Positions 9,601 to 13,082 of a DNA stretch of 21,416 nt are shown in pieces (positions within the stretch are counted from its first letter, which is position 1; each line of letters starts with the position of its first letter). A model generated the notes under the pieces. The model made no database searches. It was not told where the DNA came from and saw only the letters and a program-made list of their open reading frames with translations. Made by a program: the position numbers and the translations under genes. The stretch is from a virus: the IMG/VR virus record IMGVR_UViG_3300006789_000217, positions 1 to 21,416 of that record. One strand, 5' to 3'.

Positions 9601-10850
9601 TAAGAGAAAAATTTGGTGGTGCTAGATATGATGAACTTGTAATTGATGGTAAAACTTATAATGTTGGACCTCTATTTCCATTAACTCCTTACTTATATAT
9701 GGGAGAAGCAGTTAGAAAATTAATGAATGGCGAAGAGATAGATGGTAGATTTATGGCAGAAGGTTTAGAAGTTTTAACAGGTGTTCAAGTAGATAGAGCA
9801 GGTGCATTTCCAAGAGCAATAGCTAATTTAATTAAAGAAACAAATTATTATGTCACGACAGGTAATACAGAAAGGGCAGCAGATAAATTTGGTGCTATAG
9901 TTGGTGGATTCTTTGGATATGCTATAACTGGTTATGCTACTCCTCTAAAAGCTTTCTATGATTTAGGTGCAACTGTAGCTGGTCCTGAAAACAGAGTTAA
10001 AAGAGAAAGAAGTTTACAAACTGTATTTAATCCTGGAGAAGCTTCCAGTATGGAAGGTGAGTTTTTTAAAGGTGCAGCAGATGCATTTTTAAAAGCTATG
10101 TTTAGCGGTACTCCACTTGAAGATAAAGTGTTTGATAGAAATTTACCTAAACTTACAGGAGCAACTTTAGATTTACAAACAGATGAAATGAGGTTTGGTA
10201 AGCATTTTTTTGGTGTAGCTTCAAAAGCACAAAGTTCTGTCGAAAAAGAGTTAGATAGATTAAATTACCCTATTTGGAAATTAGTTCCTAGATCTAACGT
10301 AAATGAATATTCATACGCATACAAAAGAGAGTTAGGTCGCCTTGTAGATGACATCGTTTATCCTGAAACATTACAAAACCCTAACTATCAAAATGCTCCT
10401 TTTGAGTCTAAAAAAGATTTTATGAGAGCTTTGTTTTCAGGAAAAGGATATGATCGAAGCCCTAGAGTAAAAAAAGCATTTAAAGGTGCAGGTTATAGTA
10501 ATTACAATAATATTAAAGAAATTGCTAATGAAAGGATGGAGGAGACTTATCCAGAGTTAACTAACTTAAAAAAATTTAGAGATTCACCAAGAAGAGATGT
10601 AGGTAGAGCAATAGAAAAATTTAGAAAAAAACATGGAAGAGATCCTGATTTAAAATATAATGGAAGAGTTAAAGATGCTACAGGATCAAAACGAGAAAAA
10701 ATAATAAGAGCAGTAAAAGACGTAAAAGTACTTAGGTCATACTTAAAAAGTGCTGATAAGGCAGTATCTGATCTTGTTAGTGAAAAAGCAAGAAGTTTAC
10801 CAAGAAATAAAGGTGGTTACGTATCACAAATGAATCAACTAGGATTTTAA
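6687..10850 (+). CDS. Giant internal virion / DNA-ejection protein (putative)
   Basis: At 1387 residues this is by far the longest gene in the window. Residues about 95-210 hold several Gly/Ala-rich hydrophobic segments (around GKVVAATAGRAVIGKLI, then GGVAGGLTEGGISGAGAYLV, then GIGTLFGGALGGVTGAVG). Further hydrophobic patches lie near 850-890 and 1080-1110. The rest is charged and helical, with a basic Lys/Arg-rich C-terminus ending in MNQLGF. Short-tailed phages encode such very long, membrane-penetrating proteins near the end of the virion operon as internal core proteins that carry DNA through the envelope. I see no lysozyme or transglycosylase motif. AGGAGG lies about nine bases before the start, and the mini-MscS gene begins immediately after the stop. 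Confidence 0.55.
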   Translation: MAEEDLTAKELLKNDELVDTLIQHSRDRYGKTPKTKEEALETFLEDYRAVQSNTYSAVKFKNYVENMQDDSKRKALGKLYETVDNNLEWFAGKGGMLGGLYDYIRYGIADPLNILGFGAGKVVAATAGRAVIGKLIRDSFAKRIVAGGVAGGLTEGGISGAGAYLVEEVKGKEGLGIQDDINYGNVARAAGIGTLFGGALGGVTGAVGRKTTKNVDEIKAQMESVAENTPQGQSAKSNNMLEHRDKLAAEKQVDPETGRILSDENDIIGSFVERFETVAPENVVAQDIKISYPKQADLPTVSYRGVELKIGDELSIKKQVNDKGKTTGYSVGDENFSKITEAKEFIKNRIRESSPNELGITDDLITKSTITDNDYSKFGLITDFKGDVAEIEYLPTTYKNKINPKTGKYDEKKIVNIELSKLKGVSEARKKDYISLYVENYDKFLDKAKIEQAKDFLKQSKISQTEVDDIFSVALSKETFEDLVRFTFDTGMEIQKLAPERKLGKQINVILDDPSKRITEKIGDLLELSAKNPDVLGDIIAKAAAKNNLEPSQIANLIRAEASISMSKGADASAVQRLLNKSTDIGKKLNKATANLTKSQNAAIKALQKETELERAAARKFGVSVDVWRSYLVSQPATTLRNIIGSVLRVPGETLNTALRRFFQSMEAEALGIEPPKNIVGQEIGLLAKNLLRPQESVEIARILADNFTEADRRIFKVFDDYFSTSLGKEANAGKLLKTLHKGSQYVNVLNRMQDRTIKSVGFLTELDHQIKQAINRGEIPADINNIRDVIAKNRLDLINDKMVDESLKFAYKMTYQNRRAGDELIFGGRIINSFQSTLNRVSVIKLGLPFPNFIMNSMVYTLNRTTPLGLAKLATSGFRFAGQRTKKGKGLIQEEAARAKNIEKEIFDLKSITKGKAKLTSEDSNRLRVLEEELGQLQERSGKRLKNVEQLRQGIQETVEGATLIAVGWGIREKFGGARYDELVIDGKTYNVGPLFPLTPYLYMGEAVRKLMNGEEIDGRFMAEGLEVLTGVQVDRAGAFPRAIANLIKETNYYVTTGNTERAADKFGAIVGGFFGYAITGYATPLKAFYDLGATVAGPENRVKRERSLQTVFNPGEASSMEGEFFKGAADAFLKAMFSGTPLEDKVFDRNLPKLTGATLDLQTDEMRFGKHFFGVASKAQSSVEKELDRLNYPIWKLVPRSNVNEYSYAYKRELGRLVDDIVYPETLQNPNYQNAPFESKKDFMRALFSGKGYDRSPRVKKAFKGAGYSNYNNIKEIANERMEETYPELTNLKKFRDSPRRDVGRAIEKFRKKHGRDPDLKYNGRVKDATGSKREKIIRAVKDVKVLRSYLKSADKAVSDLVSEKARSLPRNKGGYVSQMNQLGF

Positions 10851-11186
10851 ATGGATTCGTTAAATAGTATATCCTTGGATCTTACTAATGCTCTCGTACC
10901 TCTTATGGCTATATTCCTTAGTTTAGGACTTGGGTTCTTCATTAAAGACTTAATCACAAACTTTATCACTGGTATTAAGTTTAAGTTTGATGCTAGTTTT
11001 AATGAGGGAGATAGATGTATTGTCGATGGAGACAGAGCAATACTAGTTAAGGTAGGAATATACGAAAGCGTCTTTTCTATAAAAAATGGTAGAGGCCATG
11101 TATGGAGATTTGTTCCTAATGAAAGAATTAAATTCCTAAAGATAGAAAAAATAATAGAAGAACCAAACGAAGTTAAGGAGAAATAA
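10851..11186 (+). CDS. Miniature MscS-like membrane protein
   Basis: A 111-residue protein with one N-terminal membrane helix (about residues 12-35). Residues 26-95 can be read against the pore helix and beta domain of MscS mechanosensitive channels: GLGFFIKDLITNFITGI corresponds to TM3, and FNEGDRCIVDG to the 'F..GD.V.I.G' turn. A VKVGIYESVFSI strand follows, and FVPNERI corresponds to the 'iPN..i' end of the beta domain. The usual first two TM helices and the C-terminal cage are absent, so this is a stripped-down version. The ATG follows the stop of the giant protein directly, with AGGA about six bases before it. The next gene is a holin-like membrane protein, so a role in membrane permeation or lysis is possible. 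Confidence 0.6.
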   Translation: MDSLNSISLDLTNALVPLMAIFLSLGLGFFIKDLITNFITGIKFKFDASFNEGDRCIVDGDRAILVKVGIYESVFSIKNGRGHVWRFVPNERIKFLKIEKIIEEPNEVKEK

Positions 11187-11187
11187 A

Positions 11188-11640
11188 ATGGGTGGCTTCC
11201 CAATGGAAATATTTACCCTACTAGCATCAACCTTACTAGGTGGTGTTATGAGTATATGGGGGCAAAATATTAAGTCTAAGCAAGAAGCTAACAAGATGTA
11301 CATAGCTGCTTTAACAGAAGAAAGTAAGATCGTTGCTTCTGCAAGAGAACACGGTATAAAGGATGTTCACTTTGCTTGGACTAGAAGAATAATAGCATTG
11401 TCTGCTGTATTCTCTATTATCGTATTACCAAAAGTAATCCCCCTTATATATCCTGAGTTCCCTTGGTTAGTTACTGTAGGGTACACGGAGTTACAAGGAG
11501 GATTTATGAACTGGATGTTTGGTCCAGAAAAAGCTATGGAATGGAAAACATTTCAAGGTTTCGTAATAACGCCACTTGATACAAACTTAGTCGCTGCAAT
11601 CACTGGCTTGTATTTCGGTGCAGGTTTCACCAAAAGATAA
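11188..11640 (+). CDS. Putative three-TM holin
   Basis: A 150-residue protein with AAGGAG seven bases upstream, starting one base after the previous stop. It has three hydrophobic segments: about 7-24, 67-87 and 132-147. Between the first and second is a charged helix (EANKMYIAALTEESKIVASA), followed by FAWTRRIIAL just before TM2. This layout recalls the GTA-type three-TM holin family, in which a charged helix leads into a 'W+R' motif at TM2; the match is by eye only. It is the last gene of the rightward late operon, and its stop codon lies in the repeat that forms the terminator. The predicted role is inner-membrane permeabilisation at lysis. The endolysin candidate is in the other arm (20957-21394). 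Confidence 0.5.
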   Translation: MGGFPMEIFTLLASTLLGGVMSIWGQNIKSKQEANKMYIAALTEESKIVASAREHGIKDVHFAWTRRIIALSAVFSIIVLPKVIPLIYPEFPWLVTVGYTELQGGFMNWMFGPEKAMEWKTFQGFVITPLDTNLVAAITGLYFGAGFTKR

Positions 11641-11660
11641 AGGGGGAAATTAATCCCCCT
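11635..11660. repeat. 26-bp direct repeat, left copy (terminator sequence)
   Basis: This 26-bp sequence occurs again, identical and in the same orientation, at 12049-12074. It begins with AGATAA, which includes the stop codon of the holin-like gene, and ends with the CCCCCT arm of the hairpin. The copies diverge immediately on either side. Together they bracket the single gene at 11676-12035. Confidence 0.9.
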
Positions 11661-11661
11661 T
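11640..11661. terminator. Hairpin terminator between convergent operons
   Basis: AAGGGGG (11640-11646) pairs with CCCCCTT (11655-11661), with an A-T closing pair inside and a short A/T loop. It lies directly at the stop of the rightward late operon and a few bases past the end of the leftward gene at 11676, so it can serve both directions. T-tracts on either side are short (CACTTT on +, ATCTTTT on -). Confidence 0.7.
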
Positions 11662-11675
11662 CACTTTAAAATATT

Positions 11676-12035
11676 TTAGGATTTAAATATTTTAGGATCT
11701 ATATAATTATAGTAACCAAAGGCTGGACCTGATGGATTACCATCCCAATCATACCAGTGATATGAAAATTCTAGTTCAGGAAATTTTTGTAATAAAGAAT
11801 TATAAACTTCCGTAGGGGGTTCATTTCTAGATGGAAACCTACAATGAAATAATTTTTCATCATCACATACAATGTATGCTTCAGAATGACTATATTCTTT
11901 TTTGAAAAGTTCTTTAAACTTCTTAAACTTCCCTGTAAGCATCTTATGTAATGTGTCACTATATGTTGTAAATGGATCAACATCAGATAAATCAGGTACA
12001 CTAACTTTTAAACTATTTTCAATTTGTTGAGACAT
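11676..12035 (-). CDS. Hypothetical cassette gene between two terminator copies
   Basis: A 119-residue soluble protein, starting at an ATG with GGAG seven bases upstream. The N-terminal half is polar and includes a lysine-rich helix (KFKKFKELFKKE, about 36-47). The C-terminal half has VYNSLLQKFPELEF followed by SYHWYDWDGNPSGPAFG, an aromatic, Gly-rich strand/turn segment. This is faintly reminiscent of the ferredoxin-like fold of Api92-type phage proteins, but I would not assign it. It is the only gene between two identical 26-bp terminator repeats, as expected for a recently gained single-gene cassette (moron). I see no clear promoter in the 20 bases upstream, so expression may come from read-through. 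Confidence 0.6.
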   Translation of the reverse strand: MSQQIENSLKVSVPDLSDVDPFTTYSDTLHKMLTGKFKKFKELFKKEYSHSEAYIVCDDEKLFHCRFPSRNEPPTEVYNSLLQKFPELEFSYHWYDWDGNPSGPAFGYYNYIDPKIFKS

Positions 12036-12048
12036 AATTATTCTCCAT

Positions 12049-12074
12049 AGATAAAGGGGGAAATTAATCCCCCT
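12049..12074. repeat. 26-bp direct repeat, right copy (terminator sequence)
   Basis: Identical to 11635-11660 over all 26 bases and in the same orientation. The AGATAA that contains the holin stop codon in the left copy has no coding role here; it lies in the leader of the cassette gene. The repeat-to-repeat distance is 414 bp. Confidence 0.9.
12055..12074 (-). terminator. Hairpin terminator after the secreted-protein gene
   Basis: AGGGGG (12055-12060) pairs with CCCCCT (12069-12074) around the same A/T loop as the hairpin at 11640. Read leftward, it follows the stop of the gene at 12080-12373, with a TTTAT run after the stem. It should end that transcript and separate it from the cassette gene. 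Confidence 0.65.
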
Positions 12075-12079
12075 CTAGT

Positions 12080-12373
12080 TTACTTAGATGCGTTTTTATG
12101 TAGCTTTAATATAAGCTTTGCATCTTTTTTAGTTCTAGCATCACCTACAGTACCTAGTCTATCCCTGACTACTTTAGGCAATAAACCGTGGTAAGCACAA
12201 TCGGCTGCATCGTCCATAGTACCGTATGCAGATATCTGACCTGTAACTGGATCGTGCCAATCACCTGTCACATTATCATATGGACAAGCTGGAATTTTGT
12301 CTGAGGCAATAGACATACTCGCTATTACTAATCCAGCTAATGCTATACTACTTACTGCTAATGTTTTGATCAT
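12080..12373 (-). CDS. Small secreted (periplasmic) protein
   Basis: 97 residues with a standard signal peptide: a Lys at position 3, a hydrophobic core at about 5-20 and a likely cleavage after IAS near residue 24. The mature part is about 73 residues and holds exactly two cysteines (30 and 59), able to form one disulfide in the periplasm. It also has a short aromatic/Asp/Gly motif (TGDWHDPVTG) and a basic C-terminus. GGAAG lies six bases upstream of the ATG. The start overlaps the tail of the small upstream gene at 12348-12476, so the two are read together. I do not recognise the family. Phages use such exported proteins for superinfection exclusion or envelope change; which, if either, applies here is unknown. 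Confidence 0.65.
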   Translation of the reverse strand: MIKTLAVSSIALAGLVIASMSIASDKIPACPYDNVTGDWHDPVTGQISAYGTMDDAADCAYHGLLPKVVRDRLGTVGDARTKKDAKLILKLHKNASK

Positions 12374-12476
12374 CTTTAACTTCCTTTTTCTTAGTTGCTT
12401 TGGTTGGTAATTTATCCCACTCTTTACGCCATTCTGCGTTGTTTCGTTTCATAATGTCTAATACTGATTCTTTCAT
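12348..12476 (-). CDS. 42-residue basic hypothetical protein
   Basis: A short frame from an ATG at 12476 to a TAG at 12350-12348, encoding a charged, Lys-rich peptide (begins MKESVLDIMKRNNAEWRKEW). The start overlaps the stop of the preceding gene as ATGA, a classic coupling arrangement, and the end overlaps the secreted-protein gene by 26 bp. Without it there would be a gap of about 100 bases in an otherwise gapless operon. GGAAA precedes the start. No family is recognised. The overlap geometry is the main support that it is translated. Confidence 0.5.
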   Translation of the reverse strand: MKESVLDIMKRNNAEWRKEWDKLPTKATKKKEVKDDQNISSK

Positions 12477-12664
12477 TTCTTTTTCCAATCTTCTACGTCA
12501 TACTCGTAGAGTGTAAATACTTCTTTGTTACCTGATTCAGTTATAATTACATGATCACCAGGATCAGATATCTTTCTAACATATTTCTTGGCATCACGCA
12601 AGAGGTTAAATGTATTACTTATTTTACCTCCGTCTGTTTTAGTTACTACTGTTTTAAAGTTCAT
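12473..12664 (-). CDS. 63-residue hypothetical protein
   Basis: A small soluble protein preceded by two GGAG stretches within 15 bases of the ATG (AAGGAGAAAGGAG), giving a strong ribosome binding region. The sequence alternates short strands with a lysine-rich helix (LLRDAKKYVRKI, about 21-32) and ends in DVEDWKKK. The order strand, helix, strand, strand (VIITES then EVFTLYEY) suggests a small alpha/beta fold. No family is recognised. It lies eleven bases after the membrane-protein gene and is coupled by ATGA to the next small gene, so it belongs to the same leftward accessory operon. Confidence 0.55.
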   Translation of the reverse strand: MNFKTVVTKTDGGKISNTFNLLRDAKKYVRKISDPGDHVIITESGNKEVFTLYEYDVEDWKKK

Positions 12665-12675
12665 CTCCTTTCTCC

Positions 12676-12963
12676 TTACATTTCAAAATGTATTCTAAAT
12701 AGACTAGTTGTTAAAGTCGCTAATGCAAAAGTATTTATTACTATTAATGATCGGTCATTCCACAACATACCCACTATTAACCATCCCCCTATCCCTAAAA
12801 AATGAAAATACAAGTTTAGGGGAAAGATATTATTAGACGTTAATAGCATTCCTATCATCAGGATAATTGATGAAAACCATTTTACGTACCAATCAATAGT
12901 GTATAGTGGTGTCTTAGTAACAATCGTAACTCCAACGTGTTCATCTTCCATTTTTTGTCCCAT
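12676..12963 (-). CDS. DUF6552-like small membrane protein
   Basis: About 95 residues from the ATG at 12963. The frame can be extended to a TTG at 13011, which has no better support, and a second ATG at 12951 has GGGA six bases upstream. The chain has three hydrophobic segments (about 28-43, 49-67 and 70-88) with short loops. WYVKWFSSIILMIGMLLTS, then a PLN motif, GWLIVGMLWNDRSLIVIN and a final hydrophobic stretch match my memory of the DUF6552 family of small membrane proteins in Alphaproteobacteria and their phages. Function is unknown. Its neighbours include exported proteins, so an effect on the host envelope is plausible. The leader from 12964 to 13093 is non-coding and holds a weak promoter and a hairpin. 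Confidence 0.55.
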   Translation of the reverse strand: MGQKMEDEHVGVTIVTKTPLYTIDWYVKWFSSIILMIGMLLTSNNIFPLNLYFHFLGIGGWLIVGMLWNDRSLIVINTFALATLTTSLFRIHFEM

Positions 12964-13054
12964 TTTTAAAAAAACGGCTTCGTATAAGGGGCCAGAAAGG
13001 GGTGTAAGCAATACCTGTAGGGGGTATAGTCCAGATTTTACCTACATCCTCTCT

Positions 13055-13082
13055 AGCATACCTTAAAATGCCATATACTCAA
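13055..13082 (-). promoter_or_regulatory. Possible weak sigma70 promoter
   Basis: Reading leftward, TTGAGT (13082-13077) and TATGCT (13060-13055) are separated by 16 bases. Each matches four of six consensus bases. It overlaps the hairpin at 13065-13095 and could restart transcription for the membrane-protein operon below it. Support is modest. Confidence 0.3.

Follow-up and report, generated by a model that had tools for sequence, protein, structure and literature searches.

How did a single small gene come to lie between two identical copies of a terminator-like hairpin in a marine phage? The question is raised by a 21.4-kb IMG/VR record (IMGVR_UViG_3300006789_000217, the whole of which is called the window here), which is a fragment of the genome of an HMO-2011-type marine phage. 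The DNA polymerase of the window shows a 39–41% match to those of CRP-3, CRP-212, CRP-235, HTVC033P and HMO-2011, and its class II ribonucleotide reductase a 74% match to that of CRP-3. The HMO-2011-type group has been described previously (PMC9038755), and isolates of this type have genomes of about 53–55 kb. At position 11640 the rightward structural genes, the last of which is a 150-aa holin-like gene, meet the leftward replication genes. The label "holin" comes from an earlier note on this DNA, and the PHROG match of the gene is to a family of unknown function. In the cultured relatives CRP-3 and CRP-212, the equivalent convergent junction holds other strong hairpins.

The earlier note had described two perfect 26-bp copies of a hairpin in the same orientation, and this description proved exact, with AGATAAAGGGGGAAATTAATCCCCCT occurring twice on the same strand at a spacing of 414 (Table 1). 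No third copy was found in the window with up to 3 mismatches allowed, and 100 dinucleotide shuffles of the sequence yielded zero matches to the repeat. In the direct-repeat listing, the pair extends to 34 nt at 91% match. Both copies fold into strong hairpins on both strands, at −14.6 kcal/mol on the plus strand and −19 to −19.7 kcal/mol on the minus strand. Read leftward, the element consists of GGGGGATTAATTTCCCCC followed by TTTATCT, a U-rich tail whose plus-strand equivalent is AGATAAA. The stop codon TAA of the holin-like gene (11638–11640) falls within the first copy. The earlier note saw no coding purpose for AGATAA in the second copy; it indeed has no coding role there, but on the minus strand TTTATCT forms the U-rich tail of a leftward terminator. 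Jointly with the insertion and duplication set out below, we consider it likely that the hairpin acts as a conserved intrinsic terminator in both directions, placed where the structural and replication transcripts converge.

The 414-bp unit carries one ORF only, on the minus strand, in agreement with the single leftward gene noticed before. Its G+C content of 29% is the lowest among the 23 genes tabulated (32–43% in the others and 39% in both neighbours). Searches of the 119-aa cassette protein against Pfam, NCBIfam, PADLOC and PDB sequences, together with tblastn against phages, viral contigs and genome contigs, returned nothing usable, and its lone PHROGs match was to phrog_12644, a family of unknown function (E 0.014, spanning 35 residues). 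An Api92/YubB ferredoxin-like fold was considered and rejected, as PF18406 gave no match. The AlphaFold model, made without relatives, was poor (pLDDT 52.5), and its BFVD matches were insignificant. Pfam, PHROG and NCBIfam gave no sign of a transposase, nuclease or recombinase encoded within the unit. At 11664–11697, an imperfect short tandem repeat of ~17 bp (TTTAAAATATTTTAGGA / TTTAAATATTTTAGGA) spans the 3' end of the cassette gene, stop codon included, and appears to lengthen the protein by a few residues.

Table 1 Features of the convergent junction and the inserted unit.
Feature	Position	Strand	Description
Holin-like gene, 150 aa	11188–11640	+	Closes the rightward structural block; 84–93% identity in close relatives
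Left repeat copy	11635–11660	.	Hairpin GGGGGAAATTAATCCCCC, a predicted bidirectional intrinsic terminator; present as an orthologous single copy in 23 relatives
Unique part of inserted unit, 388 bp	11661–12048	.	28% G+C; 3' spacer TTCACTTTA and 5' spacer with RBS
Cassette gene, 119 aa	11676–12035	-	ATG, RBS GGAG 7 nt upstream; without detectable homologue
Right repeat copy	12049–12074	.	Separates the 97-aa gene from the cassette gene, whose ATG follows 13 nt downstream
97-aa gene	12080–12373	-	Final leftward gene across all relatives; orthologues 38–67% identical

Comparison with relatives reveals what the site looks like without the cassette. All 23 IMG/VR relatives examined (L002–L021, L104, L114 and L153) have one hairpin and no cassette, which supports gain of the gene. 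Their order is holin-like gene, one hairpin and 97-aa gene, with the holin-like gene on the left in every case except L114, whose contig starts inside that gene. None of them carries a second hairpin or a different gene at this site, and a search of their complete records found the cassette protein in none of the 23. The relatives split into two sequence groups, between which the DNA of the 97-aa gene is ~50% identical. The 25-mer composed of AGATAAA and the 18-bp hairpin core occurs in 19 viral contigs, every one in the lineage of the window, and was absent from the GTDB species genomes searched. The proposal that a gene was gained at the terminator together with a duplication of it is thus supported by the empty single-hairpin flanks in 23/23 relatives and by the confinement of the 25-mer to the lineage. 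A contig joining the flanks of the window through a single hairpin, as would be left by the clean loss between the copies that the earlier note thought possible, was not found.

The same comparison bears on a history in which the cassette is ancestral and recombination between the two hairpin copies removed it from the relatives, so that one hairpin was left. The geometry would allow a precise deletion yielding exactly the single-hairpin site of the relatives, but this history requires loss in all 23 of them, across two sequence groups, or several independent losses. Moreover, the cassette gene is atypical in G+C and has no homologue surviving anywhere searched, and we regard ancestral presence as very unlikely.

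The only other record bearing the cassette is IMGVR_UViG_3300025103_000114, which is 99.8% identical to the window; the two show no differences from 11034 to 12768 and differ at ~27 positions elsewhere. An assembly artefact, in which two phage variants were joined at the hairpin, has to be weighed here, since assemblers can be misled by 26-bp repeats and both cassette records are metagenomic. Against this, the identical 414-bp arrangement recurs in a record with SNPs and an indel elsewhere, which counts against a single-contig assembly error, and both flanks are still syntenic with the relatives. Such an artefact is extremely improbable in our judgement, and we take the cassette to be a genuine gene insertion, specific to this lineage, at a bidirectional terminator that was duplicated.

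The 18-bp core is not confined to this lineage: with A before it and mostly T after it, it is present in at least 119 viral-contig stretches, most of which are unrelated. We examined 56 distinct core contexts, 8 in the lineage of the window and 48 outside. Outside the lineage, a leftward-reading gene lies on the right of the core in 47 of the 48 contexts, and 43 of these genes end no more than 27 nt from the hairpin. This orientation bias looks like that of an oriented intrinsic terminator. It also lends weight to an explanation with no duplication at all, in which the cassette gene arrived already followed by a widespread terminator, and the likeness of the two copies reflects a common hairpin type. 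The core typically lies just downstream of leftward genes, and codirectional gene-hairpin-gene layouts are frequent, with the next gene 16–25 nt away. Yet the 7 nt preceding the core carry other letters in all contexts outside the lineage, and a chance match of the extra letters has a probability of about 1 in 100 by our estimate. We therefore hold this explanation to be unlikely, though less so than either of the two above. The possibility raised in the earlier note, that the hairpin is simply a common terminator type, accordingly applies to the 18-bp core across viral contigs; it does not apply within the window, and the 26-bp form is lineage-specific.

Returning to the insertion, a 388-bp one-gene piece was probably inserted at the conserved terminator hairpin, with the 26-bp terminator duplicated in the process. 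The entire 26-bp duplicate consists of recipient sequence, and the unit has no recognisable gene for a recombinase, transposase or endonuclease; the joint may therefore have formed by short-homology recombination or by replication template switching at the hairpin. On the template-switch path, replication would exit at the hairpin, copy the foreign gene and re-enter upstream of AGATAAA; the duplicated 26 bp starts with these recipient letters. The left copy is followed by TTCACTTTA, which is similar to TTCACTTA at the lone hairpin of L014, L017 and L021, and the right copy by TCTAGTTTACTT, which is similar to TCTACTTTACTT of L016 and L018. The identity of the two copies does not by itself date the event, because hairpins at the orthologous site in many relatives match just as perfectly. 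In addition, since terminators with this core hairpin are common, convergence could explain part of the identity. After the insertion, the left copy would terminate the holin-like and cassette genes while the right copy would still terminate the 97-aa gene. As the terminator was duplicated along with the insertion, every gene would therefore keep a terminator at its end.

No minus-strand sigma-70-like promoter was listed in 12036–12275, in a type of scan that does not cover phage-specific promoters. Because there is no convincing promoter between the cassette gene and the 97-aa gene, we infer that the cassette gene would be expressed at a low level, via read-through of the right terminator. 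Similar short-spaced gene-hairpin-gene layouts are common among the viral-contig contexts of the 18-bp core.

Seventeen relatives share with the window a conserved non-coding block in the early region, at 12975–13070, where a covarying outer stem encloses a possible pseudoknot (CTGG/CCAG and TAGGT/ACCTA). Here 95.9% of cells are paired, versus at most 50% when slid, and cells with both sides changed number 17, versus 7.8 in shuffles. No Rfam family matched the block, which is a candidate structured RNA.

Does the junction serve as a recombination point more generally? L003 and L017 change ancestry (sequence type) just right of the hairpin, at +14 to +33 from its first G, and recombination has therefore probably joined sequences at the right edge of the hairpin on two or more occasions. 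Ancestry switches are also found at other places in the region, and this evidence falls short of proof that the hairpin is a hotspot. Across the relatives, identities on the left and right correlate with r 0.94 and show no general decoupling at the hairpin, and for this reason we used the switches of L003 and L017 alone. L007 is ~90% identical to the window over 10809–11659 and only ~67% further left; judged from these identities, the similarity represents a putative local recombination tract with an end at or near the hairpin. The DUF6552 gene (12676–13011) is present or absent at the same place among relatives, and this hairpin is not at its ends, indicating that gene turnover in the region proceeds by other routes too.

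The earlier suggestion that terminators serve as landing sites for small accessory genes found partial, indirect support. Across 1.76 Mb of loci, no other exact hairpin-containing direct repeat was found, and this phage type thus provides no second case. On the positive side stand the L003 and L017 switches and the genes located beside the hairpin in an unrelated family (L086, L109, L147, L157, L172, L198 and L111), where the same hairpin follows the same gene, the end of which resembles, in our reading, the C-terminus of a TonB-dependent receptor. Extra genes separating the hairpin from the next gene shared by the family are absent from L086 and take up ~1.0 kb in L157, L172 and L198, ~1.4 kb in L109 and L147, and 4.8 kb in L111, with differing gene sets. 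The flanks are colinear, the right side being ~77–97% identical to L086, and the hairpin is single, with no duplicate. As a general rule, terminators as landing sites are plausible, and the terminator-duplicating route has been seen once. A broader idea, which we put forward tentatively as a possible but doubtful one, is that the leftward terminator type GGGGGATTAATTTCCCCC, common to many unrelated marine phages, might act as a short-homology landing pad for the gain and exchange of accessory genes between lineages.

The locus offers a clean before-and-after view of how a gene was gained in a phage group that is abundant and for the most part uncultured. It suggests that genes can be inserted safely at the terminators of convergent junctions, since the neighbouring genes keep their transcript ends. 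If it is true that the shared hairpin acts as a recombination joint across lineages, this would help to explain the spread of short orphan genes among marine phages.

Several known systems can be compared with the cassette. A transposon or IS element with target-site duplication was rejected, the cassette protein having no family match and the 25 longest inverted repeats listed including no terminal pair. Insertion by a homing endonuclease was likewise rejected, the protein having no Pfam, PHROG or NCBIfam nuclease match. With regard to an integron gene cassette, no integrase was noticed among the ORFs of the window, a fragment. Classical phage morons, whose best-known examples lie in prophages, carry a promoter of their own. 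The cassette is like a moron in being a single accessory gene of atypical composition with a terminator, inserted between genes that are adjacent in close relatives, but it may differ in its promoter, as no sigma-70-like one was found for its gene. At the L086/L109/L157/L111 locus, accessory genes lie directly beside the same 18-bp hairpin, which, unlike the hairpin in the window, is not duplicated at the far end of the insert.

PeSL elements are composites of an early promoter and a stem-loop, and are dense in shuffled regions. In T4-type phages, conserved hairpins at gene boundaries are reported to provide the homology for swapping or adding small genes (Arbiol et al. 2010; Comeau et al. 2014; cited in PMC4503421). 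By comparison, the window differs in having what appears to be a terminator only, in two copies, in an HMO-2011-type phage, with no sigma-70-like promoter found. Whereas PeSLs have many near-identical copies, there are two in this 21.4-kb record, itself a fragment; and whereas different genes lie between PeSLs in relatives, the relatives here have neither a second hairpin nor another gene at the site. Because of these differences in copy number and gene variety, we did not file the cassette as a PeSL. The likeness is that a stem-loop terminator stands at a gene boundary and that gain of the cassette would work like hairpin-mediated modular gain; by this analogy, the closest precedent for the insertion is PeSL shuffling in T4-type phages.
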